33,039 nucleotides of DNA, taken from Gammaproteobacteria bacterium (GTDB taxonomy: Bacteria > Pseudomonadota > Gammaproteobacteria > GCA-001735895). Where the stretch lies: assembly GCA_024229615.1 (NCBI GenBank), contig JAAESG010000404.1, positions 1 to 33,039 of the forward strand. Reading direction: 5' to 3'. A model generated the notes under the pieces. The model did no database searches. It saw nothing but the letters and a program-made list of their open reading frames with translations, and had not been told where the DNA came from. Both the position numbers and the translations under genes were made by a program. Positions 1,568-22,099 of this stretch are shown one piece after another (position 1 is the stretch's first letter; every line of letters begins with the position of its first letter).

Positions 1568-4500
1568 TTAATATTTCAACGCATAGTAGACCACCGGTAT
1601 CACCACCAGGGTCAGCAGAGTCGATATCAGAATGCCGAAGATCAGGGTGATTGCCAGACCGTTGAAGATCGGGTCGTCCAGAATAAAGAAGGCTCCCATG
1701 ATAGCCGCCAGCGCGGTCAGCGTTATCGGGCGCGCACGCACTACCGCGGCCTGAATCACGGCTTCCTTGAAGGGAACTTCGTCAGCCGCTTGCTCATTAA
1801 TAAAATCGACCAGCAAGATCGAATTGCGCACGATAATACCGGCGAGCGCGATCATGCCGATCATCGATGTCGCGGTAAACTGGGCACCGAACAGTGCGTG
1901 GCCCGGCAATACACCTATCACGGTCAGTGGTATCGGTGCCATGATAACCAGTGGTACCGAATAGGACCTGAACTGCGCTACCACCAGCAGGTAAATCATC
2001 AACAACCCGACTGAGTACGCGAGCCCCATATCGCGGAAGGTTTCGTAGGTTATCTGCCATTCACCATCCCACTTGAGGCTATATTGATAGGGATTGTCGG
2101 GTTGACTGATCATATATTGCTCGATGGGTTTATCCAGCAAGGGTGAAACTAGTTCAGACTTAAGCTTCGCCAGCATTTCGAACATGCCGTATAACGGGCT
2201 ATCCAGTTCACCGGCCATATCGGCGGTAATGAACACCACCGGCAACAGGTCTTTGTGATAAATGCTACTTTCGTTACCGGTTTTCCGTAATGTGACGACC
2301 TCAGACAGCGGCACCAGCCCGCGACTGGCGGAACGCAGCTTGAGCGACAGAATACGGGTGATTTCAGCCTTGTCGCCCTCGCTCAACTCGAGTCTTAATG
2401 GAATCGGATACTTCAGGTTATCGCGATGCAGGTAGCCGATATCCTCGCCACCGACCAAAGTCGCAATCGCATTGGCGATACTGGCCTGATTCAAACCGAG
2501 GCGCGTCGCCTTTTCCCGATCGATTGTAAATACCCAACGCTCGGATTCGGATTCACTGCTGTCGTCGATATCGACAATTCCGGGGGTCAGTTGAAACACT
2601 TTACGCAGATCCCGCGCCACCTGCATCTGACCGTTGTAGTCGATTCCGTAAATCTCCGCAACCAACGGTGCCTGCACTGGAGGCCCGGGTGGCACTTCGA
2701 CAATCTTAACGTTTGCGCCATATTTGCGACCAATGCGCTGCAACGGCTCGCGTAGCGACAAAGCGATCTCATGGCTTTTCCGATCACGCTCCGATTTATG
2801 GCGCAGATTGACCTGGATATCAGACAGGTTGGAAGCGGCGCGCAAATAGTACTGACGCACAAGTCCATTGAAATTAATCGGCGCCGCCGTGCCGATATAA
2901 CCCTGGTAATCGGTCACTTCGGGCACTCCCGCAATCATCTCGCCGAGCTCGGCGATGACGCGTGCATTCTGTTCGAGGCTGCCGCCTTCAGGCATATCAA
3001 CAACGACCTGGATCTCGGATTTATTATCAAACGGCAACATTTTCAGAACCACCAGTTTAAATCCCACCAGGCTCAACGAACCCAGGATCAGGACAACGAT
3101 CGCCAGCAGTAGTAACCAACGATTGCGCCGCCCCTTTCGATCGTCGAGCAACGGTTCGAAGGCGCGCTTGAAGAATGGGTAAAGGATCTGAGCAGCTGAC
3201 GAGTCTGCGGCCTGTGCATGCTGTTTGGGTGACAGCATCTTAAGGCTGAGCCAGGGTGTCACGATGAACGCCACCGCCAGCGAAATCAGCATACCGATGC
3301 TCGCGTTGACCGGGATTGGGCTCATGTAAGGCCCCATCAAACCGCTTACGAATGCCATGGGCAAGAGCGCCGCAACCACCGCAAAAGTCGCCAGTATCGT
3401 CGGTCCCCCAACTTCATCGACGGCACGCGGTATCGCCTCCACCAAACTTGAATTGCCGGATTGCATGTGGCGATGGATATTCTCAACCACGACAATTGCA
3501 TCATCGACCAGGATCCCGATTGAAAAAATCAACGCGAAAAGCGACACACGATTCAATGTAAATCCCCAGGCCCAGGATGCAAACAGAGTCAACGCCAGCG
3601 TGACCACAATCGCGACACCGACGATTACCGCTTCGCGCAGGCCCAGGGCAAACACGACCAGTAAAACCACGACCGCGGTTGCGAACACCAGCTTCTGGAT
3701 CAGGGTCAGGGCTTTTTCATTAGCGGTCGCGCCATAGTTGCGAGTCACCGTAATTTCGACGCCTTGCGGGATCACGATCCCGCGAAGCTGATCGATGCGA
3801 CCAATGACCTGATCCGCCACCTGGATCGCATTGCTACCGGGCTTCTTCGCAATCGCCAGTGTAACCGCTGGATACTGACCTCGCGCGCTGATCCCCTTAT
3901 CAGCGGCCGCGGGACCGGTTCCAAACCAGACCAGCTGATCGGCCTGCGACGGCCTGGTTTCAATCACGGCGATATCGCCCAGCGATACTGGTACGCCATC
4001 AGATAAGCCGACAATCAGGCTCTCGATTTCGGCGGTTTCGCTTAAAAAAGTACCGGACTGCAGTGTAATTTCACGATTATCACGCACCAGGCTGCCGGCG
4101 CTGCGCGACTGATTAGCAGCGATAATGCCCGCCTTGACCTGGTCCAGGTCGATATTAAATCCGGCAAGTTTAACCGGGTCCAACAGAATTCTGACTGCCT
4201 GCCCGGTGCCCCCGAGGGAGTAGATATCCCGTGTGCCGGCTACCCGCTTCAACTCTGCTTCGAGCGAATGCGCGACCTGCAGCAGATCAACCCCACTACG
4301 TGCTGGATCCTCGCTCCACAGGGTCAGGGCCACGATGGGTACATCATCGATACCACGCGGTTTGATGATTGGCTGACCCACACCCATATTTTGCGGCAAC
4401 CAGTCGGCGTTGGAAAAGACCTTGTTATACAGCCGCACAATCGCCTGTGCACGATCTTCACCGACCTCGAATTGAACCGTCATGATAGCGAGCCCCGGTT

Positions 4501-4774
4501 TCGAAACCGAGTAAACATGCTCGATACCGACAATCTCCGACAATACCTGCTCGGCGGGTGTGCTGACCACCTGCTCCACTTCGTAGGCCGTCGCGCCGGG
4601 AAATGGGACAAACACATTGGCAAACGTGACGTTGATCTGCGGTTCTTCCTCGCGCGGTGTAATCAGCACCGCAAAAATCCCCAGCAAGATTCCAATCAAC
4701 GCCAGTAGCGGCGTAATCTCCGATTGCAGGAAGGTCTTCGCCACCCACCCGGACGGACCGAGAGGCCGACTCAT
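1568..4774 (-). CDS. RND-family efflux transporter, inner-membrane subunit
   Basis: A 1068-residue proton-driven exporter of the AcrB/MdtB type, which would form the inner-membrane trimer of a tripartite pump. Visible features are the first membrane helix (about residues 22-39), the porter-domain entry FPGATAYEVEQVV, the TM4 proton-relay motif GILVDDAIVVVENIHRH with paired Asp, and the TM10 motif GIIVRNSILLVDF. In TM10 an Arg stands where AcrB has the relay Lys. Length is normal (AcrB 1049). Its ATG overlaps the stop of the upstream adaptor gene as ATGA (4771-4774), so the two are translationally coupled. Substrate is unknown; the sequence looks like a hydrophobe/amphiphile exporter of environmental bacteria rather than a CzcA/CusA metal pump, since the metal-pump TM4 signature is absent. 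Confidence 0.93.
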   Translation of the reverse strand: MSRPLGPSGWVAKTFLQSEITPLLALIGILLGIFAVLITPREEEPQINVTFANVFVPFPGATAYEVEQVVSTPAEQVLSEIVGIEHVYSVSKPGLAIMTVQFEVGEDRAQAIVRLYNKVFSNADWLPQNMGVGQPIIKPRGIDDVPIVALTLWSEDPARSGVDLLQVAHSLEAELKRVAGTRDIYSLGGTGQAVRILLDPVKLAGFNIDLDQVKAGIIAANQSRSAGSLVRDNREITLQSGTFLSETAEIESLIVGLSDGVPVSLGDIAVIETRPSQADQLVWFGTGPAAADKGISARGQYPAVTLAIAKKPGSNAIQVADQVIGRIDQLRGIVIPQGVEITVTRNYGATANEKALTLIQKLVFATAVVVLLVVFALGLREAVIVGVAIVVTLALTLFASWAWGFTLNRVSLFALIFSIGILVDDAIVVVENIHRHMQSGNSSLVEAIPRAVDEVGGPTILATFAVVAALLPMAFVSGLMGPYMSPIPVNASIGMLISLAVAFIVTPWLSLKMLSPKQHAQAADSSAAQILYPFFKRAFEPLLDDRKGRRNRWLLLLAIVVLILGSLSLVGFKLVVLKMLPFDNKSEIQVVVDMPEGGSLEQNARVIAELGEMIAGVPEVTDYQGYIGTAAPINFNGLVRQYYLRAASNLSDIQVNLRHKSERDRKSHEIALSLREPLQRIGRKYGANVKIVEVPPGPPVQAPLVAEIYGIDYNGQMQVARDLRKVFQLTPGIVDIDDSSESESERWVFTIDREKATRLGLNQASIANAIATLVGGEDIGYLHRDNLKYPIPLRLELSEGDKAEITRILSLKLRSASRGLVPLSEVVTLRKTGNESSIYHKDLLPVVFITADMAGELDSPLYGMFEMLAKLKSELVSPLLDKPIEQYMISQPDNPYQYSLKWDGEWQITYETFRDMGLAYSVGLLMIYLLVVAQFRSYSVPLVIMAPIPLTVIGVLPGHALFGAQFTATSMIGMIALAGIIVRNSILLVDFINEQAADEVPFKEAVIQAAVVRARPITLTALAAIMGAFFILDDPIFNGLAITLIFGILISTLLTLVVIPVVYYALKY

Positions 4775-5811
4775 AAACCGCTATCCAGCTGACGTTTATG
4801 CTCGATCCCGGCACGTACCGGGTCAAGTGCAACGCTTTCACCGGCATCGAGTCCGGCCAGAATTTCAACCTGCTCGCCAAATAGATTGCCGGGTCGCACC
4901 TGTCTGAGTGAAAGTTGACCCGCGTCATCGAGCACGTAAACCGCGTTAACCTCCGTACGCGATACCAGCGACTTTTGCGGTAACAAAATGCGTTCGGTGC
5001 TACCGATGGTCAAAGCCACCTTAACCAGCATGCCCGGATACAGGTCGTTTTTCATCTCAGGTAAATCCAGACGCACGGGAAAACTGTGATTTCGCGGGTT
5101 TGCGAACGGATGGATCGTAATCTTGCCCACTTCGAGCGAACGTCCGTCTTCGAGCAAAACCACACGAGCGCTACGGTGGGTACGTAACCCGGAAATAATC
5201 GACTGCGGTACATACGCACTGACTCGCAACTGTCCTAGCGCATATCCGGTCATAATAGGCTGACCCGGGCTGGTCGTTTCACCGGGTTCGACATGCCTTT
5301 CTACCACCACGCCGCTGTAAGGCGCACGGACCACGGTATAACCCAGCTGCTCCTCCGCCTGAGCCAGATTGGCAAGGCTGGAGGACTTTCGAGCCTGTGC
5401 CGCCTTCAGATTGGCCCTGGTCTTATCGAATACCGCCTGGGATATCAGCTTTTTACTGCGTAAGTCTTCGTTGCGCCTGAATTCCAGTTGCATATCCTGC
5501 AGGTTTGCATCTGCTTCATCTAGTGCAGCGAGGGCCCTTTTCTGCTGCGCGACATACTCCTGATCGCGTATTTTCAGCACGATTTCTCCCCGCTCGACGA
5601 AATCGTCGATATCGAAATTCACCATTTCGATCTTGCCGGCTACTTCGGCTGATATTGTGGCCTGCTGACGCGCTTCGACAACGCCGTCCAGGTGATACTC
5701 GAGCGGCATCTTCACCCATTGCAAAGTGACAGATTGAAGCGGGCCGGCTGCATTTGCAGAAATCGCTATCAAGCCGGAACCGATGGCCAAGAATTTAATC
5801 AAAGACTGCAT
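4771..5811 (-). CDS. Periplasmic adaptor subunit (MFP/HlyD family) of the RND pump
   Basis: A 346-residue membrane-fusion protein that would bridge the RND transporter and an outer-membrane channel. Order of parts: signal peptide ending ISANAA (about 1-22), first lipoyl/barrel half (GVVEARQQATISAEVAGKIE), a coiled-coil hairpin of about 90 residues rich in Ala, Leu, Glu and Arg, second lipoyl half (VVRAPYSGVVVERHVEPGE) and beta-barrel domain. I chose the ATG at 5811 because GGAG lies 7 bases upstream and the signal peptide starts there; the in-frame ATG at 5847 lacks this. The stop codon overlaps the start of the RND gene. A perfect dyad overlaps the likely promoter upstream. Confidence 0.92.
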   Translation of the reverse strand: MQSLIKFLAIGSGLIAISANAAGPLQSVTLQWVKMPLEYHLDGVVEARQQATISAEVAGKIEMVNFDIDDFVERGEIVLKIRDQEYVAQQKRALAALDEADANLQDMQLEFRRNEDLRSKKLISQAVFDKTRANLKAAQARKSSSLANLAQAEEQLGYTVVRAPYSGVVVERHVEPGETTSPGQPIMTGYALGQLRVSAYVPQSIISGLRTHRSARVVLLEDGRSLEVGKITIHPFANPRNHSFPVRLDLPEMKNDLYPGMLVKVALTIGSTERILLPQKSLVSRTEVNAVYVLDDAGQLSLRQVRPGNLFGEQVEILAGLDAGESVALDPVRAGIEHKRQLDSGL

Positions 5812-5853
5812 AATATGACTCCAGATTGATTGCGGTGGATAATTCAAAATGCT

Positions 5854-5941: not shown

Positions 5942-6403
5942 ATGCAGGCTATCGCCGCGGCTTTAAAGATTTTATTCCTCGTGCTTTTCGCTTTGACGTC
6001 GGTGACAGCAATTGCATCGAATCGACTCGCAAATCATCCTTCCCATTACCTCGAAATGCATTCCGAAGACCCGGTAGACTGATGTCCCTGGCAAGCCGAC
6101 ATTTTTGACGATGCCAGAAAACACAACCGACTGGTATTCGTATCGTTAGGCTATTTCTCCTGCCACTGGTGCCATGTCATGCACCGAGAGACTTACCAGA
6201 ACGATAAAGTTGCGATGATCCTGAACCAGAATTTTATCGCGGTCAAAGTCGATCACGAGCTCGATCCCGATCTGGTATTTTTCTCGCCGATGACACTGTG
6301 GCTTGAAGTGGCACTCAAAATACCAAACCTGGATCCAACTGTCCGTGGTGATGCCACCACAATGTTGCAACGAGCCAGCCGTGAAATGCTCAACACACCT
6401 TAA
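5942..6403 (+). pseudogene. Broken YyaL/DUF255-type thioredoxin-domain gene
   Basis: From the ATG at 5942 the frame gives a signal peptide, then ASNRLANHPSHYLEMHSEDP and VD, and a TGA at 6080-6082 exactly where the family has Trp (PVDW). The same frame continues with the family's thioredoxin site FSCHWCHVMHRETY and FIAVKVDHELDPD. Homology stops there. Full-length relatives (YyaL/SSP411 family) run on for several hundred residues with a glycoside-hydrolase-like barrel, but here about 45 unrelated codons lead to a TAA at 6401-6403. So this is an N-terminal remnant with one nonsense change and a large 3' deletion. Residual translation from 6179 could give only a 74-residue piece. Confidence 0.75.
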
Positions 6404-6964: not shown

Positions 6965-6994
6965 ATGGCGTTTCAATTTCAGGGGGATCAAACC

Positions 6995-7615
6995 ATGATC
7001 AAAAAAGTTTTTCTAACATTCGTACTTGTTTTGGGCCTGGGCAGCGGTACCGCCTTCGCCACCGAAGCGCCGGCTACCAGCACCGTTCAACCAGCCGAAG
7101 CAATTAACCCGATGGCCTGGATGGGCATGATGAACGCAGGTGTTCCTAATGCTCAGCAGATGAACCTGGCACGTCCGGAGGGTTACCAGGCATTCATGAA
7201 CCCGATGAACTATGGCCAATTCATGAACCCGGCTACTTACGGGCAGTTCATGACGCCACAGTTTTACATGCAATTTGCGGATCCAAACAACATGATGGCA
7301 TGGATGAATCCGGCCGCTTACAGCGCCTATATGAATCCTGCCAGTTACATGCAGATGATGAATCCGATGGGCTACATGCAGTTCATGAATCCCAATACTT
7401 ACATGCAAGCTATGAACCCGGCCAATTACCAGGTATACATGAATCCAAATACCTACATGTCGTGGATGAATCCGAATGCCTACGTCCCGGGCGCTGCTAC
7501 CGCGAGTTATGCAAACCCCAACGCAGATTTCAACTTCTTTGACCCGAATGCATGGACCAACATGATGGCACCACAGGTTCAGGCTCCCGCACAACCCGAG
7601 GCACCGGCTCAGTAG
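6995..7615 (+). CDS. Exported protein of eleven tandem nonapeptide repeats ([FYW]MNPxxYxx)
   Basis: A 206-residue exported protein. The ATG at 6995 has AGGGGGA 7 bases upstream and gives a clean signal peptide (MIKKVFLTFVLVLGLG, cleavage after AFA near residue 22). Residues 67-165 are eleven gap-free repeats of nine residues with consensus aromatic-Met-Asn-Pro-x-x-Tyr-x-x, for example FMNPATYGQ, YMNPASYMQ and FMNPNTYMQ. The third and fourth units diverge (FMTPQFYMQ, FADPNNMMA). A Met-rich lead-in (NPMAWMGMMN) precedes them and a Pro/Ala/Gln-rich tail (about 193-206) follows. The protein has no Cys. I do not recognise the family. Regular Met and Tyr spacing would fit Cu(I) or hydrophobic-ligand binding, or a self-assembling fibre or coat, but this is speculation. 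It shares an operator with the RND operon and lies upstream of the CPFC thioredoxin-fold gene. Confidence 0.85.
   Translation: MIKKVFLTFVLVLGLGSGTAFATEAPATSTVQPAEAINPMAWMGMMNAGVPNAQQMNLARPEGYQAFMNPMNYGQFMNPATYGQFMTPQFYMQFADPNNMMAWMNPAAYSAYMNPASYMQMMNPMGYMQFMNPNTYMQAMNPANYQVYMNPNTYMSWMNPNAYVPGAATASYANPNADFNFFDPNAWTNMMAPQVQAPAQPEAPAQ
7193..7489 (+). repeat. 27-bp coding tandem repeat array (11 units)
   Basis: These bases encode the eleven nonapeptide units of the repeat protein, with no gap in phase. Units differ in sequence at DNA level (codons for Asn, Pro and Tyr vary), so the array is old or selected at protein level rather than a recent slippage product. The antisense strand is also open for 193 codons, which is a by-product of the repeat. 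Confidence 0.85.
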
Positions 7616-7690: not shown

Positions 7691-8245
7691 ATGGCAAAAA
7701 AGCTTCCCATATTTGCGCTTCTACTCTGCATCTTACCCACCTTCCTGTACGCGGCGACACCGCGAGATCCGTACCAGCACTTTTTCGAGCAAACGCTCGG
7801 CGATTTGAGCGAGGAGCTCGAAATTGCACGGGAATCCGGAAAACAGGGCGTTTTTGTTTTCTTCGAGATGGACGAATGTCCTTTTTGCCATCGCATGAAG
7901 CAAACCGTACTCAACCAACCCGAGGTACAGGATTTCTTTCGCCAGCACTTCCACTCGATCACAATCGATATCGAGGGTGACATCGAAATCGTCGATTTTG
8001 ATGGGCAGGACACCACGCAAAAAGAGTTCGCGCGACAAAACCGGGTACGCGCCACCCCTCTGATGGCGTTTTACGATCTGCAGGGAAAACGGATTTTCAA
8101 GTACACCGGTGCCGCTTCCGGGGTGCAGGAGTTCATCTGGATGGGCGAATACATCGTGAACCAGGTTTATTTGCAAAAAGACGATTCGGGTCGCAACATT
8201 CGTTTTACGCGATTCAAACAAATGAAAAAGAAACAAACCCTTTAG
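7691..8245 (+). CDS. Periplasmic thioredoxin-fold protein with CPFC site (SoxW-like)
   Basis: A 184-residue exported protein. A signal peptide (about 1-21, ending FLYAA) is followed by a helical lead and a thioredoxin fold: strand GVFVFFEM, redox site C63-P-F-C66 in DECPFCHRMK, and the conserved cis-Pro at P123 in VRATPLMAFYD. It resembles the SoxW/thioredoxin-like proteins that reduce or oxidise periplasmic thiols; the partner is unknown. I chose the ATG at 7691 over an in-frame TTG two codons earlier; neither has a strong ribosome-binding site. It starts 75 bases after the repeat protein and is followed by the TolC-like gene, so it may share their transcript. Its target could be a pump or sulfur-metabolism component, which is inference. 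Confidence 0.85.
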   Translation: MAKKLPIFALLLCILPTFLYAATPRDPYQHFFEQTLGDLSEELEIARESGKQGVFVFFEMDECPFCHRMKQTVLNQPEVQDFFRQHFHSITIDIEGDIEIVDFDGQDTTQKEFARQNRVRATPLMAFYDLQGKRIFKYTGAASGVQEFIWMGEYIVNQVYLQKDDSGRNIRFTRFKQMKKKQTL

Positions 8246-8311
8246 CGACTCAGTAAAATTGCGCTAACATTCCTGCTGTTGTCCCACAGCCCCAGAGTAT
8301 CGGTTGAAACA

Positions 8312-9616
8312 ATGATAATAAAAATCTTAAGCCGATGGCCGATGATATCGATGCTGACCCTACTGTTTCCTTTCATGGCATCGGGCGAATCGTTACCCGA
8401 ACCGCTCAGCCTCGAGGCCGCATTGGAAACCTCCCACAACCCGCTACATTTTGACCTGGTTGAAATCGACCAGCACCTACGAGCGGCCAGGGCCGAAATG
8501 GGCATCCAACAGGGCGACAACGGTTTCAGCCTCGATCTGGTAGGCCGTATTCGCGAGGTTGGCCTCTCCGATGCGGCTGACGATGATGACGAAAGCAACG
8601 ATAGCGCCGCCAGTCTGATTCTTTCCAAACCGCTCTACGACTTTGGTCTGCAGAATTCTCGTGAAACGCAACTTGAGCTTCAACTTCAGGCCCTGGAGCA
8701 ACAAAAACGCCTGGTCATCGAGCAACGCCGCCTGCGCATCATGGAACAGTATTTTGCAGTATTGAATGCCGACAATGACTTCATCAGTGAAAATGAAGCC
8801 CTTGCGATCGGCTTTATCCGTTATGACAATGCAGTGCAAGATCAGGAGCTCGGGCTGGTGGCAGCAATTGAGGTTGTGCGGCTGCAATCCGAGTATGAGG
8901 TTATACGCCAAAAGCGCTATCTCGCCGAACACCAGCAGCGTTTAACGCGCGCCATACTGGCCGAGTCGATGGGTTATCCGGGTCAACTGCCTTCCGATCT
9001 GGATATACCTCAAATTGACACCAGGCGCAAACTATCGGGTGACATCGAGGCATTGGTCGCGCAGGCTCTGCAACGCAGTCAGGAAGCGCGGGTGGTGTCT
9101 GCCAACACACAGGCGGCCCGGGCTGCCATCGGCATTGCCGAAGCGACCGATAATCCGAGTCTCGAACTGGAGTTTCAAGTATCTTCCTATGAACGCGAAA
9201 GCCGCCTGCGTGACGACTGGCGGGCCAGCCTCTATTTTCAGATTCCACTTTATTCCAGCTCCCCCGGAAATAATGTCGACCTTGCCAAGGCGCGTTACAG
9301 ACAGGCAATTGCCGACCAACAACAATTGCAATCGCATTTGCGTCTCGAGGTTCTCGGCCTGTGGCAAAAGATCCAGCAACTGGGTTTCAAGATCCAGGGC
9401 AAAATCGTCGAACAGGACTATCGAGACCGATACCTCGATCGCAGTCGCGCAGAGTACGAACTCGAATTCAAGACCGATCTCGGTGATTCAATGGTTTTGT
9501 ATTCGCGCAGTAATACCGAGCGCTTGCGAGCTCTCTATGCATTCGAACTGGCCTATCAAAGGCTTGTTTCACTGGTCGGCATCGATTTTCTCGATCAATT
9601 CAGCTCAACGCAATAA
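8312..9616 (+). CDS. TolC-family outer-membrane efflux channel
   Basis: A 434-residue outer-membrane factor. The ATG at 8312 starts a signal peptide (MIIKILSRWPMISMLTLLFP, cleavage near ASG-ES). I rejected an in-frame TTG at 8279 because it pushes the signal inward. The rest is mostly long Gln-, Glu- and Leu-rich helices in two related halves, as in TolC/OEP proteins; examples are LEAALETSHNP early, and SSPGNNVDLAKARYRQAIAD, then SRAEYELEFKTDLGDSMVLY in the second half. It would form the trimeric exit duct for the RND pump or for the adaptor encoded next. It begins 66 bases after the thioredoxin-fold gene and ends 11 bases before the second adaptor gene, so these form an operon. An acidic insert (DAADDDDESNDS, near residue 90) is unusual. 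Confidence 0.85.
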   Translation: MIIKILSRWPMISMLTLLFPFMASGESLPEPLSLEAALETSHNPLHFDLVEIDQHLRAARAEMGIQQGDNGFSLDLVGRIREVGLSDAADDDDESNDSAASLILSKPLYDFGLQNSRETQLELQLQALEQQKRLVIEQRRLRIMEQYFAVLNADNDFISENEALAIGFIRYDNAVQDQELGLVAAIEVVRLQSEYEVIRQKRYLAEHQQRLTRAILAESMGYPGQLPSDLDIPQIDTRRKLSGDIEALVAQALQRSQEARVVSANTQAARAAIGIAEATDNPSLELEFQVSSYERESRLRDDWRASLYFQIPLYSSSPGNNVDLAKARYRQAIADQQQLQSHLRLEVLGLWQKIQQLGFKIQGKIVEQDYRDRYLDRSRAEYELEFKTDLGDSMVLYSRSNTERLRALYAFELAYQRLVSLVGIDFLDQFSSTQ

Positions 9617-9627
9617 CGGAGATTGAT

Positions 9628-10389
9628 ATGCGTTTTTTGCTAACCCTATTGTTATGCTTCGTTTCGACCCAGGCCATCGCCATCGATCTCAACGGGCATA
9701 CGGAATTCGCACAACGCATGGCACTGAACAGCAGTATCAGCGCCAGGGTCAAAACGATTCATGTCGCCGCAGGAGATCAGGTTGTGGCGGGAGAAGTTTT
9801 ATTGACTCTGGTATCAACCGGGTTACAGGCCAACGTCGATATCGCGCAAGCAAAAGTCCACTCGCTGGCACCGATCCTGGAAAAAATGCAAACCGAATTG
9901 GAGAAGGCACAGGAACTGTTCGACCGCGATTCACTGGCTCTGGTCGAGTTAGGCAATGCAGAACAAAACCATGCCATTGCCGGGGCCAACCTGGCAGCCG
10001 CCAATGCAAGATTGGTGCGAGCGCTGTTCCACCTGTCACAGGCTGAATTGCGTTCACCGATTAATGGCGTCGTGCTAAGCATCGATAGCTTTGCCGGGCA
10101 ATTCATCAACACCCGTGACGGGTACCAACCCCTGTTGACCGTCGTGGATAGTTCCTCGATGATCGTGCGCGCAACATTGCCGCTTGAACTGTGGAGTAAT
10201 TCATTGCTGAAGCGCTCCGCCAGGGTCCGTTTTCAGAAACAGATCTTCAAAGGCGAGGTAGTTGAGATCGGCAGTCAGGTTAACGTTGGCGATAACAATC
10301 ACCCGTCGGTTTCACTACTGGTCAAGTTTAAAACCGGGGGTAAGCTGCCCGCTGGATTACCAGTCATTGTTAATCTTGCAAATAACTAG
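9628..10389 (+). CDS. Second periplasmic adaptor (HlyD/MFP family), short form
   Basis: A 253-residue adaptor with a signal peptide (MRFLLTLLLCFVSTQAIA). It has a first lipoyl half (ARVKTIHVAAGDQVVAGEVL), a helical hairpin of about 80 residues, a second lipoyl half (LSQAELRSPINGVVLSIDSFAGQF) and a short barrel. It is roughly 100 residues shorter than the first adaptor and lacks the membrane-proximal domain. CGGAG lies 7 bases before the ATG and the gene follows the channel gene after 11 bases. No second inner-membrane transporter is encoded next to it, so it may pair with the RND protein at 1568-4774 or with a transporter elsewhere. Confidence 0.85.
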   Translation: MRFLLTLLLCFVSTQAIAIDLNGHTEFAQRMALNSSISARVKTIHVAAGDQVVAGEVLLTLVSTGLQANVDIAQAKVHSLAPILEKMQTELEKAQELFDRDSLALVELGNAEQNHAIAGANLAAANARLVRALFHLSQAELRSPINGVVLSIDSFAGQFINTRDGYQPLLTVVDSSSMIVRATLPLELWSNSLLKRSARVRFQKQIFKGEVVEIGSQVNVGDNNHPSVSLLVKFKTGGKLPAGLPVIVNLANN

Positions 10390-11513: not shown

Positions 11514-12506
11514 CTAACCGACCGAATCGCGTACCAGCGGACAGGTCGAGCAGTGGATACCACCACCATTGAGTTGAACCTTGTCGTAGTCAATTTCAAT
11601 GGTTTCGATGTTAAGCTCGGCAAACGCAGTCGCGGTTTGGGTTGAAATACCACGCGGCATGATGACTCGGCCCGGTGATACCGCCAGGCAGTTGATAATC
11701 CACGGATCGTCCTGCTCGCAGATTTCCACCGTTCTAATACCGATTTCTTCGAGTCTTCTAAGGAATGAATAAGGCAAGTGGTCGGGGTCGACGATGGCGA
11801 CATCGACATCAATCATGGTCAACAAGCCATCGATATGAATATCGTATCCAGGCATATCGATACGTATCAACTCCACTCCCTGTGCATTCAGTACTTGTTC
11901 AATCTGGTCGCAACCTTCGTCGTTGACGCAGATCGATCGTGCGATGACCGCAGTTTTCGAGTTGAGCCACGCAAAACTGCCTCCCTCAGCCATTGCCGTG
12001 GTATGCAGTGTTCGCATTATCGGCATACCAAGATTGGCTAGCGTCTTGCTAACGTGCGCTTCTTCACCACGTCGGATACTGCGTGCCAAACGCGTTACGA
12101 TCGCACCTCCGTTGATCGCAAACGATGAATCCCGGGTATAAACAGATTTGATCCCGTCGGGCTCCACACTATCGAGGAAAACAACTTCCACGCCTTCACT
12201 ACGCAGGGTCTGAACCAGCATCTCGTGTTGGGCGCGGAACTCGTCCCAGTCTGGAATTACATCGCTCTGAAAATACCAGCCCTGTTCCAGGTCGCCGAAA
12301 GATCCAACCTCCTCGATGCGCCTGGCGGGATCGATGATACTCATTTCCTCACCGGGGCGGTGCATCAGGCACAGCCTGATCTGTCCAACATCATTATCGC
12401 AACCCCACTGCCTGCCCCAAACTGAATGCTGTTGGCTTGCATCCTCGAAACCCGGTTCCGGCTGCGAGCCGAAAAGTTTAATGGTCTGGTTATATATGCT
12501 GGTCAT
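11514..12506 (-). CDS. Amidinotransferase/arginine-deiminase-fold hydrolase (DDAH-like)
   Basis: A 330-residue pentein-fold enzyme. The catalytic set is visible: VYTR125D126SS, E174GG, the His-Asp pair in YDIH224ID226, and a nucleophilic Cys in NGGGIHC319STCPL. This family includes arginine deiminase, dimethylarginine dimethylaminohydrolase and glycine amidinotransferase, all of which attack the guanidinium carbon through the Cys. The single short domain favours a DDAH-like hydrolase of an arginine derivative, but the exact substrate is open. The ATG has AGGTG 7 bases upstream. The guanidino theme is shared with the ureohydrolase and creatininase-family genes nearby. A second Cys at 322 is close to the nucleophile and may matter for regulation. 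Confidence 0.85.
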   Translation of the reverse strand: MTSIYNQTIKLFGSQPEPGFEDASQQHSVWGRQWGCDNDVGQIRLCLMHRPGEEMSIIDPARRIEEVGSFGDLEQGWYFQSDVIPDWDEFRAQHEMLVQTLRSEGVEVVFLDSVEPDGIKSVYTRDSSFAINGGAIVTRLARSIRRGEEAHVSKTLANLGMPIMRTLHTTAMAEGGSFAWLNSKTAVIARSICVNDEGCDQIEQVLNAQGVELIRIDMPGYDIHIDGLLTMIDVDVAIVDPDHLPYSFLRRLEEIGIRTVEICEQDDPWIINCLAVSPGRVIMPRGISTQTATAFAELNIETIEIDYDKVQLNGGGIHCSTCPLVRDSVG

Positions 12507-12810
12507 GATGACACCTGTCGATAGTTTTATTGCAGAGTGATCAGCCCGATTTTACGGCACATTCAGATCGAAACCAGTCCGATAACAATATTATCACCTT
12601 ACTTCAATCAGATCAGGTTTGGCCTGCATGTCCCGATCAAGTCTGTCATGAAACCATCTTTATTCACCAGCCACTCGCATCATTTCAGCTTACCCGGAGA
12701 AGCTGGCACTGGTGGTCTATTATGCCAAATCGATTGAACATCATTACAAGCCTAACCCTTAACCACGCGATGCCAGGTCAAGCGCTACAGGAAATTGGGG
12801 ATCGCCGCTC
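12507..12810. other. Intergenic stretch between two minus-strand genes
   Basis: I see no complete gene in these 304 bases. A short plus-strand tail (about 12680-12760, reading AYPEKLALVVYYAKSIEHHY and ending TAA) looks protein-like but has no start and no family I can name. The left end carries the leader of the DDAH-like gene. Confidence 0.4.
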
Positions 12811-13734
12811 TCAAACGGCCATTTCTTCCAGCAAGCGACTTCTGAAAACCAGATAGTAGGCTCCGAACAGGACTCCTATCGCAGCACCGCTGATGTGGGC
12901 CACGTAATTTACGTAGGAATTGTTGTCCAACTGACTGATTTCGTAGACATCCCAACCCACATACCAGATGGCAATCAACAAAGCGGGGACTCGAAAAATA
13001 CGGAAAAACAGGAAAAACCAAAAAAAACAACGAATCTTCACTGTCGGCATCATCACCCCCAGAGCGGCAACAGCCGCCATAACCACACCCGATAATCCTA
13101 TGGTGGGTAACGCATTTTCGATACCCGCCATGGCGAAGCTGTAAGCCAGGCTGGTACCCAGGGTTGCGATGGTGATGAAAAGGACAAAAACCAGGCTGCC
13201 GAATACGAGCTCTACCGAAGCGGCAAAGATATAGAAAAACAGTAAATTGCCCGCCAGATGCATCGCACTTCCATGGGAGAAAGTAGAAGTTACCATTTTA
13301 ACTATGTCGAGATCGTGCGGGTTGTATGCGAGATCACTGGTCAGGTGTTCAGGCACATCGCGCTCAAACTTGCGGTAAATATCTGACAGCTGTTTTTCGA
13401 CATGCTCAAGATTGGCTTCGACCGAAGTAAACAACTTGATCGGTTTAACCAGCCTTGCCAGACGATCGATCGTCTGATTGGCGTCTTCACTATCACGAAT
13501 CGATTCGAGTATGATCGCACAGCGGTTTCCCTCCCCTTCACCGGGCACACGGTGCAACCAGGCCAGTTCCCGCCTGCTCAGGTCCTGCACACAAAACTTT
13601 TCTATTGCCTGAAAGTATTGCTGATCGATTGAACGCTGTTGCCAGTAAACAAATGTGCACAGGATACAGATCAGCAGCGTCAGAATTGGCAATCCACTTC
13701 TACTCGCGTCAATTCGATAAGGAAAAAAAAACAT
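12811..13734 (-). CDS. Rhomboid-family intramembrane serine protease with long N-terminal insert
   Basis: A 307-residue membrane protease. I chose the ATG at 13734 because AAAGGAG lies 5 bases upstream; a longer frame to 13830 has no such site. Rhomboid core residues are all present: H154 and H159-L-A-G-N163 (oxyanion region), the nucleophile S215 in GLSG, and the catalytic H280 in YVAHISGAAIG. After a first membrane helix (about 13-31) there is a charged, probably periplasmic region of about 110 residues (32-145) before the core, larger than in GlpG. The C-terminus is short. It lies among metabolic genes with no obvious substrate nearby. Confidence 0.9.
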   Translation of the reverse strand: MFFFPYRIDASRSGLPILTLLICILCTFVYWQQRSIDQQYFQAIEKFCVQDLSRRELAWLHRVPGEGEGNRCAIILESIRDSEDANQTIDRLARLVKPIKLFTSVEANLEHVEKQLSDIYRKFERDVPEHLTSDLAYNPHDLDIVKMVTSTFSHGSAMHLAGNLLFFYIFAASVELVFGSLVFVLFITIATLGTSLAYSFAMAGIENALPTIGLSGVVMAAVAALGVMMPTVKIRCFFWFFLFFRIFRVPALLIAIWYVGWDVYEISQLDNNSYVNYVAHISGAAIGVLFGAYYLVFRSRLLEEMAV

Positions 13735-13896
13735 GGCCGCTCCTTTGCCGGTGACTGTGCTCAATACACGGAAAACTGTCAAGCTCAAACCGAACCTGGG
13801 CGCCGAGGAATGACGGGATGACTCGACCAATACCTGAATCCGCAGGTTCAGGTAATAGTGATCTCGTTACGCTGAATCATGCCTGGCAAGAATAAC

Positions 13897-14424
13897 TCAC
13901 CTGATCTGGTTAACGTCTTGCCACCATTGCTGGAAAGCCTGCTCGGTAAAAGGCAGCACGCTACCCAGTTCGCCACTTCTCTCCTGCCACACCGGCAGAG
14001 CCGCTTCGGGAACCGATATCAACAAGGGGATGCCTTCGACAATAGTCTGCATAATTTCATCGATCAATCCCTTACCGCTTTGTTCCAGTTCACCAAACTT
14101 TTCCACCACCATCAGCTCGCATCGATCGTTGATCGCATTGAGCAGGATAGCGGTGGTTTGAGTCAGTGCCGAAACATCTAGGCCGCATTCATCGTCGCTT
14201 TGCGCCGGGCGCGAAATCGGAATACGGTGATCGTTTGAAACATCGATGGCATTGAGCCCGACGATTTCCCCGTTGGCATTGAACAGTGCTTCCTGCAGAA
14301 CCCCGCCAATATGGATATCCAACGTCTTTTGCTTGTCGACGAATTTCAACAGCGCCATGCGATCGCCCGTTTCGGGGGTATAAACCGCGGCGGCGAACGG
14401 CGACATGGTTTGATCGTAGGTCAT
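13897..14424 (-). CDS. DUF2478-like protein
   Basis: A 175-residue cytoplasmic protein. The stretches VVEKFGELEQSGKGLIDEI and GIPLLISVP, and the ending GELGSVLPFT then QQWW, match the pattern of DUF2478, a NTPase-like family of unknown function often found near molybdenum or metal-uptake genes. The N-terminus has GDRMALLKFV, where the family has its helix after the first strand, but no classical P-loop is seen. I chose the ATG at 14424; 14406 is also possible and neither has a strong ribosome-binding site. It shares orientation with its neighbours but has a 95-base gap before the oxidoreductase gene. No molybdenum gene is in the window. Confidence 0.7.
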   Translation of the reverse strand: MTYDQTMSPFAAAVYTPETGDRMALLKFVDKQKTLDIHIGGVLQEALFNANGEIVGLNAIDVSNDHRIPISRPAQSDDECGLDVSALTQTTAILLNAINDRCELMVVEKFGELEQSGKGLIDEIMQTIVEGIPLLISVPEAALPVWQERSGELGSVLPFTEQAFQQWWQDVNQIR

Positions 14425-14519
14425 AGGCGCCAAACTACCATCAATTATCCCGAGTTACACTGACAGTTTGTCGTTCGCATGGTTGCCAATGCCTTAACAA
14501 CAAAAACGACATGACAAAC

Positions 14520-15929
14520 TCACAGGGTAATGGGAAATCCCATTTTCTGCACGATCCAGATCCATGGTTTACGCCAACCACCTTTTTCATCCAGCGTATC
14601 CAGGGCATACATGGTGATTTTGGCGCCTATCCAGCGAAACGGTTCCGGCGGTATGTAGTTGGGGACAGTTTTCGCGAAGGACAGTCTGGTTTCAGGGATA
14701 TCGATTCCATCGAGTATGGCCAGTCCGATACGGGCGCCAAATCGGGAAGCGGTAACACCGAAACCCGAATATCCACCGGCATAGACCATGTTGCCGCCGT
14801 GGTAGCGCTGGTAATGCACCGCCATACGGGTGGTCAGCCCGATCGGTCCGCTCCAGGCGTGAGAGAATTTGATTTCTTCTTTTAATTGCGGAAATGTCCG
14901 GTAGAAAGACTGCACCAGACGTATATAGGGTGCCGGTGTTTTGTCCAGCGCCGGATCCGTGTTATTGCCAAAAAAGTAATTCAGCCGTCCACCGAACAGA
15001 ATACGGTTGTCGGCAGTCAGCCTCATGTAATTCAACTGGGTTCGGGTGTCGTAAATCCCCTGCCGATTTTTCCATCCGACACTTTCCATCTGAGCCTCGC
15101 TCAACGGTTCGGTCATCAAAATCCGGTCCCGAATGGCCGCGACCCGGGTCTTGATTTTCCTGTGACCCGCACTCCAGGCATTCGTCGCCAACAGCACTTT
15201 GGCTGCATCTATCAGGGCACGAGGTGTCTCAACTTTTACTCTGCCAGTATTGTACTCGTTGCTGACATGCGGCGTATTTTCGTAAATTCTGACACCGAGC
15301 TTCAGTGCCAGAGCTTTGAGTCCCCGCACCAACTTGCCGGGATGAACAATGCCGCTGCGTTGCTTCGACCAGACCCCTCCATGGAAGATTGGCGAGTTAA
15401 TTTGTGCCTGTATCTCCGCCTTGTTCATCTTCTGCGCATCGTGCCCGTACTTGACATAGAGCTCGTAGTCTTCATCGACGGTGGCGAGCCCCTGATCCCC
15501 TATCGACACCTTCATTTCACCACCCCATTCGATGTCACAGTCGATGTTGTGCTCTTCGACGGTTGCCTTGAATCCATCCATATTTTCGCGTCCCAGCTTT
15601 TCCAGTTCTTCGACTTCGCCCGGAAACATTCGCTCCGTATTGTCGATACCGTGCATCACCGAGGTCGACATGATTGCCGCAGGTCGCCCGCTGGCGCCAT
15701 TGGCAACCGATTGTGCCTCGATCAAAACCACATCCCGTTCAGGATTCGCCTGGCGGGCATGAATCGCGGCCCACAGACCACAAAAACCACCGCCGACAAC
15801 CAGCAGTTCACAGCTGATATCATGTTCCAGCGCAGGTTCGTCTTCGACGGGCCCAAGGCTATCCAGCCAGTAGGTATCAAAGGTGGTGTTGTACAAAGCC
15901 TGTTTGGCTAAATCGACATCTGTAGTCAT
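14520..15929 (-). CDS. FAD-dependent DAO-family amine oxidoreductase
   Basis: A 469-residue flavoenzyme. An N-terminal extension of about 40 residues precedes the dinucleotide-binding motif ELLVVGGGFCGLWAAIHARQ (Gly at 46-48 and 51), followed by VVLIEAQSVANGASGR and, near the C-terminus, the second FAD segment MVYAGGYSGFGVT. Relatives such as gamma-glutamylputrescine oxidase (PuuB) and glycine/sarcosine-type oxidases oxidise primary or secondary amines to aldehydes. It starts 58 bases after the ureohydrolase gene on the same strand, so a two-gene operon is likely: the ureohydrolase releases an amine or amino acid from a guanidino compound and this enzyme could oxidise it. The precise substrate is not determined. 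Confidence 0.85.
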   Translation of the reverse strand: MTTDVDLAKQALYNTTFDTYWLDSLGPVEDEPALEHDISCELLVVGGGFCGLWAAIHARQANPERDVVLIEAQSVANGASGRPAAIMSTSVMHGIDNTERMFPGEVEELEKLGRENMDGFKATVEEHNIDCDIEWGGEMKVSIGDQGLATVDEDYELYVKYGHDAQKMNKAEIQAQINSPIFHGGVWSKQRSGIVHPGKLVRGLKALALKLGVRIYENTPHVSNEYNTGRVKVETPRALIDAAKVLLATNAWSAGHRKIKTRVAAIRDRILMTEPLSEAQMESVGWKNRQGIYDTRTQLNYMRLTADNRILFGGRLNYFFGNNTDPALDKTPAPYIRLVQSFYRTFPQLKEEIKFSHAWSGPIGLTTRMAVHYQRYHGGNMVYAGGYSGFGVTASRFGARIGLAILDGIDIPETRLSFAKTVPNYIPPEPFRWIGAKITMYALDTLDEKGGWRKPWIWIVQKMGFPITL

Positions 15930-15987
15930 GATTTTTTCCAGGTAAGTCAGAATTCAAACAATTCGTTATAAAATCCGATCGTTAATC

Positions 15988-16938
15988 TCAATCATCTCTC
16001 GCCACCGCACCGGGAAGGGTACACAGCATTTCATAAAGCAGATTTGCGGCCAGTGACGCCGTAATCCCGCCGTGATCATAAGGCGGTGAAACCTCAACCA
16101 GATCGCCGCCTATGATATTGAGCCCGCGACAACCTCGCACAATCTCAAATGCCTGCGCCGAGGTCAGTCCACCCGGTTCCAACGTTCCGGTACCGGGCGC
16201 ATAGGCAGGATCGCAGCCATCGATATCAAATGAAATGTAAACTGGTCCGTCTCCGAGTTGATCTCTGACCTCCTGCATCAGCGGTGTGAGGGATTTATGC
16301 CAGCAATTTTCCGCCTGCACGACCCGAAACCCCTGCTCGCGCGGCCAGTCGAAATCGTCAGCGGCATAACCCGTCGTGCGTAGCCCTATCTGCACCACAC
16401 GGCCTGGATTCACCAGCGACTCTTCGACCAGGCGCCGAAACGGCGTTCCGTGGGCTATCTTTTCACCAAACATCAAATCGTTGACGTCGGCGTGCGCGTC
16501 GACATGAACGACACCCACCGGCCCGTGTTTCTTCGCCAATGCCCGCAGTATCGGCAGCACGATGGTGTGATCGCCACCCAGCGTAAATGGCGCCGCACCG
16601 AATCGCGTAATTTCATCGTATGCCTTTTCGATAATATCGACCGACTTCAACAGGTTGAAGGTGTTGATGGCGACATCGCCGAGGTCGGCAATTTGCAGTG
16701 AATCGAACGGCGAGATGCGCGTCCACATGTTGTAGGGTCTGATCATGGTCGATTCAGCACGTATCGCACGCGGCCCGAAACGGGCCCCGCCTCGATGCGA
16801 CGTACCCAGGTCGAAAGGTACGCCGACAAAACAGGCATCCAGACCTTCGGCACTGTCATTCGCGGGTAAGCGCATCATCGTTCCCGGGCCGGCAAAGCGT
16901 GGCAATTCATTGCCCCCGATGGGCTGATTAAATTCCAT
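15988..16938 (-). CDS. speB: Ureohydrolase (guanidinobutyrase/agmatinase type)
   Basis: A 316-residue dinuclear-metal amidinohydrolase releasing urea. All metal ligands are visible: GGDH124, VHVD147AH149AD151, and SFD238ID240GCDPAYAPG. The beginning (GNELPRFAGPGTMMRLP, then RFGPRAIRAES and MIRPYN) matches the Pseudomonas GbuA/GpuA type (guanidinobutyrate or guanidinopropionate) more than E. coli agmatinase, from memory of those sequences. Symbol speB denotes the family only. GAGGTGA lies 8 bases before the ATG. It is the first gene of an operon with the DAO oxidoreductase and is divergent from the creatininase-family gene across 336 bases. Confidence 0.88.
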   Translation of the reverse strand: MEFNQPIGGNELPRFAGPGTMMRLPANDSAEGLDACFVGVPFDLGTSHRGGARFGPRAIRAESTMIRPYNMWTRISPFDSLQIADLGDVAINTFNLLKSVDIIEKAYDEITRFGAAPFTLGGDHTIVLPILRALAKKHGPVGVVHVDAHADVNDLMFGEKIAHGTPFRRLVEESLVNPGRVVQIGLRTTGYAADDFDWPREQGFRVVQAENCWHKSLTPLMQEVRDQLGDGPVYISFDIDGCDPAYAPGTGTLEPGGLTSAQAFEIVRGCRGLNIIGGDLVEVSPPYDHGGITASLAANLLYEMLCTLPGAVARDD

Positions 16939-17274
16939 TAGATAGTCACCTCTATCAGTTCTGTATCGTAAAAAGGATGGGCTTGGCTTGCATCATCCCT
17001 CTTTTGTCGTATCGGGGGCAAGTCCAAACCGGGCCTTTATTATCATGGGATTGCCGTCAACCGGGCCGCGCATTCTATCGATCACCGAGTCTGTGCCCCC
17101 TGATCAACAACTAGTGGCTCAACCTGTAATGCCCATTTACACATCACAAGCCTGAGCTGCTGGATTGACAGCGCTCTTCTGATGTTTCAATCTTGCTGCG
17201 TCAAATCTCAACAGCCCGGATTTATCGATAGTACTGTGTTGAGGCCCTGACCCAAAAACCACACGGAGTATTCA
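16939..17274. promoter_or_regulatory. Divergent control region between ureohydrolase and creatininase-family genes
   Basis: There is no gene in these 336 bases. A possible plus-strand promoter is TTGACA (17165-17170) with a weak CAATCT 17 bases later. The left end has the ribosome-binding site of the ureohydrolase gene, the right end CGGAG for the creatininase-family gene. I see no strong operator dyad. Confidence 0.4.
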
Positions 17275-18015
17275 ATGCGTCTACAAACCGCAACCTGGCC
17301 CGATGTCGAAGCATATCTCGAACATTCTGATGCTGTCATAGTGCCTATCGGCTCGACCGAGCAACATGGTCCGAACGGTATGCTCGGAACCGACGCCATA
17401 TGCCCCGAAACAATTGCCTTCGGGGTAGCCGAATCGATGCAAGTGCTGGTAGCCCCGACCCTCTCTATCGGACAAGCTCATCATCACCTGGGTTTTCCCG
17501 GCACCATCGCGTTACGACCCAGCACCCTGCTCGCGGTGCTCGTGGATGTGGTGCGATCGCTCTATCGTCACGGCTTTCGCCACGTCTATTTTCTGAATGG
17601 CCATGGCGGTAATGTGGCCACTGTGAACACAGCCTTCCAGGAGATTTATGCCCAGTCGACGTTCGGCGATGCCAGCCTTTCAGATTTGCGTCTCAGGCTT
17701 TGCAACTGGTATATGTCTCCCACGGTTGGAAAACTCTCAAAGGAATTGTTCGGCGACCAGGAAGGTAGTCACGCAACGCCATCAGAAGTCTCGCTGACTT
17801 TTTATGCCTACCCTGACGACGTCAAGTCCACGCCCATGTCACCAACACTCGCCCCAACCGGGTCGATACGCGATGCGGACGATTACCGTACCCAATTTGC
17901 CGATGGGCGCATCGGCTCAAACCCGGCCCTGGCGACAGTAGAAGCGGGTGCGCGCCTGTTCGAGGCCAGCGTCAACGATGTACTTGAAGACTTTCGTGGA
18001 TTCATCTCAACCTGA
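17275..18015 (+). CDS. Creatininase-family amidohydrolase
   Basis: A 246-residue metal-dependent cyclic-amide hydrolase. The signature PIGSTE29QH31GP with D40 in LGTD, FLNGH110GGN, and a later Glu in HATPSEVS supply the usual ligands of creatininase and its relatives (creatinine amidohydrolase, mycofactocin MftE, FAPy deformylase). The common His after GP is Asn here (GPNGML). CGGAG lies 6 bases before the ATG. A role in creatinine or another lactam in the guanidino pathway fits the neighbours, but no creatinase is present. Many creatininase-family proteins act on other substrates, so the specific reaction is open. Confidence 0.85.
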   Translation: MRLQTATWPDVEAYLEHSDAVIVPIGSTEQHGPNGMLGTDAICPETIAFGVAESMQVLVAPTLSIGQAHHHLGFPGTIALRPSTLLAVLVDVVRSLYRHGFRHVYFLNGHGGNVATVNTAFQEIYAQSTFGDASLSDLRLRLCNWYMSPTVGKLSKELFGDQEGSHATPSEVSLTFYAYPDDVKSTPMSPTLAPTGSIRDADDYRTQFADGRIGSNPALATVEAGARLFEASVNDVLEDFRGFIST

Positions 18016-18019
18016 ATCC

Positions 18020-18659
18020 GGAGCACTGGAAATAGTTCATCTCTACTTCCCCTGTCGCCTGACCATCATGAAAAAAGCCCGGGCCCAGGAGTTGTTCAGG
18101 CACGATGGGGAATTTTATCAATATCCCGCGCCCGATTTTACCTGGCAGCACAACACGAGCCCGGCTAACCCCGAACTGGTAGACATCAAAACCAACCAGC
18201 TCAGGCAAATCGGTCTGACCCCACGGCCATTGCAGCAACCCCCACCCGCCACTGTAGCAGGTTGTCGATGGCCACCGCTCGAACGACTGGGCCGGCCGTA
18301 ACGGGCCCAACGCGATCATGTGGATTCCGACGGTCAAAGCGCTGAAGGAACGCTTCGAGGTCTATCGCAATGCTCGAAGTGAAGCCGAAGGGCGCGACGT
18401 ACCGCTGGGCGAAGGCATCTCGCTGGTACGCGATATGTTCGTCGCCGATTCGATGGATGAAGCACGCGAACTCGCTGGCGAGGACATCATCACTTACCTG
18501 AGCTGGATCGCGCACTGGCGTGGGCTCGGCAGTCACATGGATCCTGGCGAAGTATTACCCGAGACACCCGGCAAACTCGACCTGCTGACCTACGAATTTC
18601 TGCATCCACGTAACATGCTGTTCGAAACCCCGCAAAAGATGGTGAGAAATGCGGTCTAG
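18020..18659 (+). pseudogene. Broken luciferase-like (LLM) flavin-dependent monooxygenase gene
   Basis: Only the C-terminal part is left. Frame one reads GALEIVHLY, then FRHDGEFYQYPAPDFTWQH and GLTPRPLQQP. At the five-C run 18239-18243 the homology moves to another frame (an extra C), which reads HPPL-TAG-QVVDGHRSNDWAGRNG and runs to the TAG at 18657-18659 (GKLDLLTYEFLHPRNMLFE). The TAG at 18255-18257 stands where the family has Trp (PPLWQV). So there are three defects: lost 5' half, frameshift and nonsense codon. The 3' section from the ATG at 18318 could still yield a 113-residue fragment. It lies 5 bases after the creatininase-family stop codon, so it may once have been in that operon. Confidence 0.8.
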
Positions 18660-18706
18660 GACCTGTTAAAGTAGTGGAAATTTTCCGGAAATTTTGAGTT
18701 TTAAAA

Positions 18707-19207
18707 ATGACTGACGACAACGAAGCACTGGGAACGATTGCACTGCTTGATGGTTGCTATGAGGCACGCTTGCAACGGGTCATCGAGCACGATCAGGCTG
18801 ATGTCTGGGCGATGCTGACCGCTCCATCACGATTTGTTGAATGGCTTGCGCCGGGAGAAATCGAGCTGCACAAAGGCGGTAGCGCGAAGCTGGACTTTGT
18901 CGATAGCGGCATTGTAATCGACAGCAGCGTCAGCGAATGTGAAGCCCCGCGCTTGCTTGAATATTCCTGGAGCGCGCCAGGTGAACCGCTCAGACCGCTA
19001 CGCTGGGAAACTGAAAAAGTCGAAAACGGCACCCGCCTGACACTGACGCTGCGTAGCCCGCAAGACGAAGATATCGCACGCACCTGTGCCGGTTGGGAAG
19101 CGCATTTGATGATGTTGATGGCGGCCATCGAGGGCGTGCCGATCAAGTTCCCGTTCGACCGCTTCATGGCTACGCGCGAAGAATACAAGCAGATGCTGGC
19201 CGACTAA
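18707..19207 (+). CDS. SRPBCC/AHSA1-like domain protein
   Basis: A 166-residue START-like ligand-binding protein. The pattern EARLQRVIEHDQADVWAMLT, FVEWLAPGEIE, a central beta-sheet (LLEYSWSAPGEP, LRWETEKVENGTRLTLT) and the long C-terminal helix AGWEAHLMMLMAAIEG is that of the AHSA1 branch of SRPBCC proteins. Such proteins form a hydrophobic pocket and often have unknown ligands. The ATG at 18707 has only a weak AT-rich leader. It is the last plus-strand gene of this block and converges on the oxidoreductase at 19533. Its function here is unknown. Confidence 0.85.
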   Translation: MTDDNEALGTIALLDGCYEARLQRVIEHDQADVWAMLTAPSRFVEWLAPGEIELHKGGSAKLDFVDSGIVIDSSVSECEAPRLLEYSWSAPGEPLRPLRWETEKVENGTRLTLTLRSPQDEDIARTCAGWEAHLMMLMAAIEGVPIKFPFDRFMATREEYKQMLAD

Positions 19208-19532
19208 CCACACACTCTCACTGGCTCTTGCTAAGGCGCCCCGATTGAACGCCCTGTCGGCCCGTTCTGGCGTAAATCACTAGTTATTACGTCTAGTGGT
19301 CTTTCAATTTAATAATGACGGGTGCAAAGCGTCCCAGTTAGTGTGGGACAAGTGATACGGCATCCCGACGCAGTCCCACGCCAACTGGAACCCTCCCTTC
19401 GGGCACGAAGGAAAACGGCCCATTTTCTCGATCTTTTTCGTTGCGTAGTTCCCACTATGCGTCTCAAAAGATCAAAAAAATGGACTCGATTTCCCACTCG
19501 CCTCGCTACGATTCCCTTAATCCGGCAGGCTC
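19208..19532. repeat. Convergent intergenic region packed with inverted repeats
   Basis: The 325 bases hold no gene but at least four dyads in a row. CACTAG and CTAGTG flank 9 bases near 19278-19298. CCAGTTAGTGTGGGAC (19334-19349) pairs at 14 of 16 positions with 19373-19388. CCTTCG-GGCA-CGAAGG (19396-19411) is perfect. A 64-base hairpin spans 19420-19483, with GATCTTTT/AAAAGATC exact and TGCGTAG/CTATGCG pairing by G-U. They may act as terminators for the two converging genes, but there is more structure than that needs, so a small RNA or a MITE-like element is possible. Confidence 0.7.
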
Positions 19533-22067: not shown

Positions 22068-22099
22068 GGGAAATCCTGCTGCGAGGTTGATAGATGACC

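Follow-up and report, generated by a model that had tools for sequence, protein, structure and literature searches.

An exported family of nonapeptide-repeat proteins in Gammaproteobacteria, with possible structural functions for extracytoplasmic sulfur

Little is understood of the way in which bacteria retain solid or polymeric sulfur outside the cytoplasm, and of the proteins that envelop it, those studied best come from a purple sulfur bacterium. The locus described here raises the question of what a gammaproteobacterium might do with an exported protein in which a nine-residue unit rich in Met, Asn-Pro and Tyr is repeated eleven times. It lies in a stretch of 33,039 nucleotides (contig JAAESG010000404.1, assembly GCA_024229615.1), which we refer to as "the window", and its product is referred to as the "MNP-repeat protein". 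No sulfur genes immediately adjoin the copy in the window, and the context of sulfur oxidation from which our answer is drawn becomes visible only through the comparison of relatives. The features of the window are collected in Table 1.

Table 1. Coordinates of the MNP-repeat protein gene, its parts and its neighbours in the window
Feature	Position	Strand	Remarks
RND permease	1568..4774	-	Pfam ACR_tran; conserved divergent neighbour
RND periplasmic adaptor	4771..5847	-	NCBIfam RND_mfp 1.9e-60; conserved divergent neighbour
MNP-repeat protein gene	6995..7615	+	206 aa; mature 184 aa, 20.7 kDa; ATG, Shine-Dalgarno, start kept in orthologues
Sec-type signal peptide MIKKVFLTFVLVLGLGSGTAFA, 22 aa	6995..7060	+	predicted cut after AFA (MIKKVFLTFVLVLGLGSGTAFA, then TEA); by inspection, similar leaders in orthologues
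Twelfth unit LARPEGYQA, degenerate, in phase upstream of array	7166..7192	+	P and Y at consensus positions
Array of 11 gap-free nonamers (99 aa), consensus [FYW]-M-N-P-x-x-Y-M-Q	7193..7489	+	translation and alignment
C-terminal part with isolated FFDPNAWTNMM motif and Pro/Gln/Ala-rich tail	7490..7612	+	
Exported thioredoxin-like protein (CPFC motif)	7691..8245	+	next gene downstream; Pfam Thioredoxin_2 8.6e-20; conserved neighbour of window subfamily
TolC-like outer-membrane efflux protein	8279..9616	+	Pfam OEP 8e-22; conserved neighbour
Short HlyD-like periplasmic adaptor	9628..10389	+	Pfam HlyD_3 9.9e-14; neighbour

The start at ATG 6995 is preceded by a GGGGG Shine-Dalgarno sequence (6982-6986, 8 bases 5' of the codon) and is shared by the orthologues, whose alignment gives no support to the longer start at ATG 6884 in the ORF list. 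An antisense ORF of 193 aa over the array (7013-7594) is a mirror of the repeat and was not taken as a gene, and scans for promoters and terminators yielded no more sites than in shuffled sequence. The mature protein contains no Lys, His or Cys and only one Arg, is nearly uncharged (pI ~4; GRAVY -0.46) and carries 10 MxxM motifs.

A first-pass annotation of this DNA had described a clean signal peptide followed by eleven exact nonapeptide repeats with fixed Met-Asn-Pro and Tyr positions. The leader is indeed clear by inspection and is found in the orthologues as well, and the frame, the extent, the period and the eleven gap-free units were all confirmed; the units are not exact copies, however, and among the positions thought to be fixed only Pro occurs in 11/11, Met and Tyr being present in 10 of the 11 units each and Asn in 9. 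An aromatic residue (F, Y or W) opens 9 of the 11 units, the exceptions being one M and one A, and positions 8 and 9 are M and Q, respectively, in 6 units each. The period itself is real. Displacement of the mature protein against itself by nine residues yields 59 identities versus 17.5 +/- 3.9 (maximum 34) in 5000 shuffles, and at lags of 7, 8, 10 and 11 the identity does not rise above that of the shuffles. Among 39 distinct family ORFs, a few of them partial or short, the motif spacing is exactly 9 in 300 successive cases, and the next commonest spacing, 18, was seen 18 times. The DNA of the units is identical from one to another at a mean of 0.57 (range 0.30-0.78).

No confident fold was obtained for the protein with AlphaFold on a 15-row alignment (pLDDT 45, pTM 0.20). 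The model contains 7-residue helices split at NP, which we regard as a suggestive hint only; the composition, and a break at NP in each nonamer, suggest that the chain is a succession of very short turns or helices in which Met and Tyr would be regularly placed.

The low-complexity composition and the want of a confident fold might be expected of a non-functional product of repeat slippage, but this explanation is already refuted by the data on selection, and we give it hardly any weight. In comparisons with close orthologues dN for the array (0.03-0.06) is far below dS (1.26 to saturation), and dN for the rest of the protein is 0.19-0.28 (about 0.2-0.3). The 15 rows of the alignment represent the window protein and 14 related proteins, 13 of which have the 11 units without indels, the exception being the most distant row (L017); in some rows the eleventh unit ends two residues short. 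Between species, units of the same index are 80% identical versus 49% for units of different index, which indicates that the array is old and fixed and not the result of a recent expansion. Strong purifying selection acts on the array, in agreement with the earlier suggestion of selection on a regular structure, and the period and signal peptide, whose loss in relatives had been named as grounds for abandoning that suggestion, are both retained in orthologues and paralogues.

As judged by sequence comparison, the MNP-repeat proteins constitute a new, unnamed family. The first-pass annotation knew of no named family with this unit and proposed a profile search that might place the protein in a characterised one; no such family was matched, since NCBIfam and the sequences of the PDB gave no hit and no Pfam match reached its cut-off; those to JmjN and PAGK were weak, fell short of it and were treated as chance. 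No account of MNPxxY repeats turned up in searches of the literature. A scan of genome contigs detected 16 loci, all labelled Gammaproteobacteria, including one in the Olavius algarvensis Gamma 3 symbiont (L004, 79% identity; genome G029), which belongs to the genus of the window's organism and has been called an aerobic sulfur oxidiser (PMC8549751). Related genes were found in 19/95 close relatives and in 7/369 genomes of a class-wide draw of Gammaproteobacteria (six families); in a phylum-wide draw of 398 the window's own genome was the sole positive and the other 397 were negative. The family is thus restricted to a few lineages, and these mostly carry dsr and sox genes.

A tree of the family separates an A type, to which the window copy belongs, a B type, a C type and some outlying copies, with weak support for the deep branches. 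The window's own genome encodes a C copy (contig C328, L002) in addition to the A copy. Three of the C-type copies (L002, L034 and L042) lie between genes for a MATE-like transporter and a protein resembling 2-oxoglutarate-type oxygenases, and another (L046, G003:C38:40305-40865) contains an in-frame TGA. The MNP copies of genome G364, four in number and divergent, each lie on a contig of their own (L081-L084), and none is near recognised sox or fcc genes in the stretches read.

The association with sulfur oxidation can be seen at two levels. At the level of genomes, dsrA was detected in all seven positives of the class-wide draw versus 118/369 overall (P = 3e-4, or ~1e-3 when the six families are counted in place of genomes). 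In the window's own genome dsrA, soxB and three matches to SoxY were detected, but none to FCSD. Among the 19 positive relatives a clear dsrA match is absent from G015, G025 and G028, whose completeness is 94%, 87% and 71%, respectively; G015, with a C-type copy, has no dsrA match, yet soxB and SoxY are present. The converse is common, in that many dsr-positive genomes, some of them in the window's own genus, are without the family. A search for photosynthetic reaction centres in 18 sets, intended to bring up a member of the Chromatiaceae, detected one phototroph, which had no strong dsrA match.

At the level of gene order, B-type genes in the window's genus (L054, L057) have as neighbours fccA, fccB, soxY, soxZ and genes for a DUF302 protein, a TlpA-like thioredoxin, cytochromes and a Met-rich CxxCH protein. 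In a member of the Arenicellales (L014) fccAB lie directly upstream of the MNP gene; G054 (L051) combines two MNP copies with the CxxCH protein, DUF302 and soxZY; G253 (L079) has DUF302, the CxxCH protein, a sulfur-transporter domain and soxB; and at L018, where a short MNP-like ORF gives a weak match, fccAB, DUF302 and the CxxCH protein are near. If five genomes of the genus that have one cluster in common are counted as one context, fcc or sox genes occur within 10 kb in ~5 of some 14 separate contexts. Under a rough and assumption-laden null of six fcc/sox loci per 3.5-Mb genome (0.034 per context), which can serve as a guide only, the probability of 5/14 is ~1e-4, or ~1e-3 for 4/13 when L018 is omitted. 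Four relatives with long contigs carry the A-type gene on one contig with soxB, at a distance of 21-41 kb, and with dsrA, at 40-67 kb; this represents a single conserved arrangement and not four events. These results tie a repeat family to fccAB, soxYZ and soxB in dsr-carrying bacteria, one of which is the symbiont of a worm.

Other exported proteins recur in these clusters. A DUF302-containing protein is encoded next to MNP genes and soxYZ, soxB or fccAB (L051:14669-15703, L062:2147-3235, L018:3689-5083). A Met-rich family has members in the fcc/sox-linked clusters at L057:8145-8684, L051:13595-14590, L018:5121-5708 and L079:8917-9855; some have long MNPMM repeats, and the member tested had no family match. 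A third family, C9, is Met-rich with a conserved Cys (MKC.[ST]EPVMWDTW) and segments separated by [ND]P, often adjoins MNP genes (L013:5181-5858, L014:6657-7373, L051:10088-10774, L080:632-1339) and has no match in Pfam or NCBIfam; AlphaFold on three C9 sequences gave a weak model (pLDDT 59, pTM 0.45) with helices separated at [ND]P. The last two families resemble the MNP-repeat protein in export, Met content and [ND]P-broken segments, and are adjacent to it in several clusters, but C9 differs in its longer, less regular period and its Cys, and the other companion in having one CxxCH motif along with M/NP-rich repeats.

Our leading explanation, to which we assign a probability of about one half, is that sulfur-oxidising Gammaproteobacteria export the MNP-repeat protein as a structural protein, that it serves as an envelope or scaffold, or as part of one, for extracytoplasmic sulfur deposits, and that it works in the manner of the sulfur-globule proteins (Sgp). 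A role as coat or scaffold is suggested by the composition and the NP break taken together with the sulfur-gene context. The protein would leave the cytoplasm by Sec export, and its nearly uncharged Met/Tyr/Asn-Pro nonamers might form a regular chain in which very short turns or helices follow one another, each begun anew by Asn-Pro. Aromatic and thioether side chains could recur along one face of such a chain; this face would rest on the hydrophobic zero-valent sulfur or polysulfane generated in the periplasm by Sox and the enzymes of sulfide oxidation, and might also self-associate into a coat, with the neighbouring exported thioredoxins and cytochromes acting on the sulfur. The localisation on sulfur, the formation of a coat and the parts played by Met and Tyr are what we infer from these observations. 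Of the roles on which the first-pass annotation had speculated, an assembling sheath comes closest to this explanation. If the explanation is correct, the nonamer might provide a peptide unit, both simple and designable, for tests of how zero-valent sulfur is bound by proteins.

The comparison with SgpA-D, the exported, repetitive proteins with regularly spaced prolines that envelop the sulfur globules of Allochromatium vinosum (PMC10386293), was made through published descriptions only, and we do not class the MNP-repeat protein as a member of that group. It is like them in its N-terminal leader (by inspection), in its regular prolines (one every nine residues, in 11/11 units) and in coming from a sulfur oxidiser. 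The sgpD gene adjoins an exporter of hydrophobic or amphiphilic compounds (PMC10386293), to which the RND neighbour of the window gene is a parallel but not a proof. In contrast, the published spacing in SgpD is mainly P-X2-P, SgpA-C are described as extremely hydrophobic (the MNP-repeat protein has a GRAVY of -0.46), and SgpD is reported to be almost exclusive to the Chromatiaceae; a DNA pattern built on the SgpD proline spacing matched mostly Gly/Pro simple repeats. Most likely the family functions in an already known way, as a variant on a known functional kind. It is possible, though on balance doubtful, that we are dealing with an undescribed architecture, in which 7-residue helical turns restarted by Asn-Pro, with ordered thioether and aromatic side chains, bind and coat zero-valent sulfur outside the membrane in a few sulfur-oxidising gammaproteobacterial lineages, along with the Met-rich CxxCH and Cys-bearing companions and independently of the Sgp of purple sulfur bacteria.

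The surroundings of the A-type gene are conserved in relatives in the order RND permease and adaptor, a DsbH-like protein, two unknown proteins (C7, C8), the MNP-repeat protein, exported thioredoxin, TolC and short HlyD. In the window C7 and C8 are missing, and there is an interrupted DsbH-like remnant at 5963-6400 (+), in which stretches matching residues 7-111 and 539-583 of a relative of 599 aa (L053) adjoin in one frame. The nonamer period and the TolC and HlyD neighbours raised the possibility of an RTX protein, which was rejected on the consensus and the leader: RTX repeats (GGxGxDxUx) are Gly/Asp-rich and bind Ca2+, and RTX proteins are exported through a C-terminal type I secretion signal (PMC3034196, PMC6891781) and not by an N-terminal signal peptide, whereas the repeats described here are built on Met, Asn-Pro and Tyr and follow an N-terminal leader; no RTX model was among the Pfam matches.

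The evidence of gene linkage would also serve for an extracytoplasmic accessory of sulfide or thiosulfate oxidation that forms no globule coat, such as a polysulfide-binding carrier or scaffold, or one that joins FccAB or SoxYZ, cytochromes and thioredoxins. The cytochromes, Met-rich CxxCH protein and thioredoxins of the clusters would suit such a role, but a repetitive composition of low complexity is found more typically in structural coats and the protein has no recognisable redox or binding domain, so that we consider this alternative unlikely, albeit worth keeping in view. The first-pass annotation had instead speculated on Met as a ligand for Cu(I) or hydrophobic compounds. A binder of Cu(I) or another soft metal, with MxxM sites formed by M8-x-x-M2 across neighbouring units, might act as a periplasmic buffer or as the efflux partner of an RND pump, and the Met-rich Cu(I)-binding periplasmic proteins are likewise exported and have MxxM pairs. 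The ten MxxM motifs, the divergent RND/adaptor pair and the TolC and HlyD genes downstream are consistent with that part of the speculation, which is weakened by the lack of His and Cys, by a permease that scores higher with multidrug models than with CusA/CzcA models (474 versus 260 bits in NCBIfam, all under curated cut-offs), by the absence of copper genes from the conserved neighbourhoods scanned and by the B- and C-type copies, which are without such an RND context. The typical Met-rich Cu(I) site also has far fewer repeats, and metal binding seems to us improbable. Slightly more improbable still is an extracellular or surface protein (of a sheath, a matrix or an interaction with a host) that is unrelated to sulfur and occurs by chance in sulfur oxidisers, several of which are from marine animals or sponges. 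Several positive genomes come from a worm symbiont or from what we presume to be sponge- or sediment-type samples, and TolC and HlyD are nearby, but the linkage to fcc and sox recurs in several lineages, the leader is N-terminal, and the annotated neighbours include no type I ABC transporter.

Two further observations lie outside these arguments. The window carries a catabolic region at 11514-23623, with genes for arginine deiminase/DDAH-like, FAD oxidoreductase, arginase-family and creatininase-family proteins, a GCV_T-DAO fusion and an MttB-type trimethylamine methyltransferase. In two dsrA-positive genomes (G072:C21:13622-14454 and G343:C46:27598) the opposite strand reads repeat stretches rich in Gly/Met/Tyr or Gly/Met/Asn, which are possibly other structural proteins.
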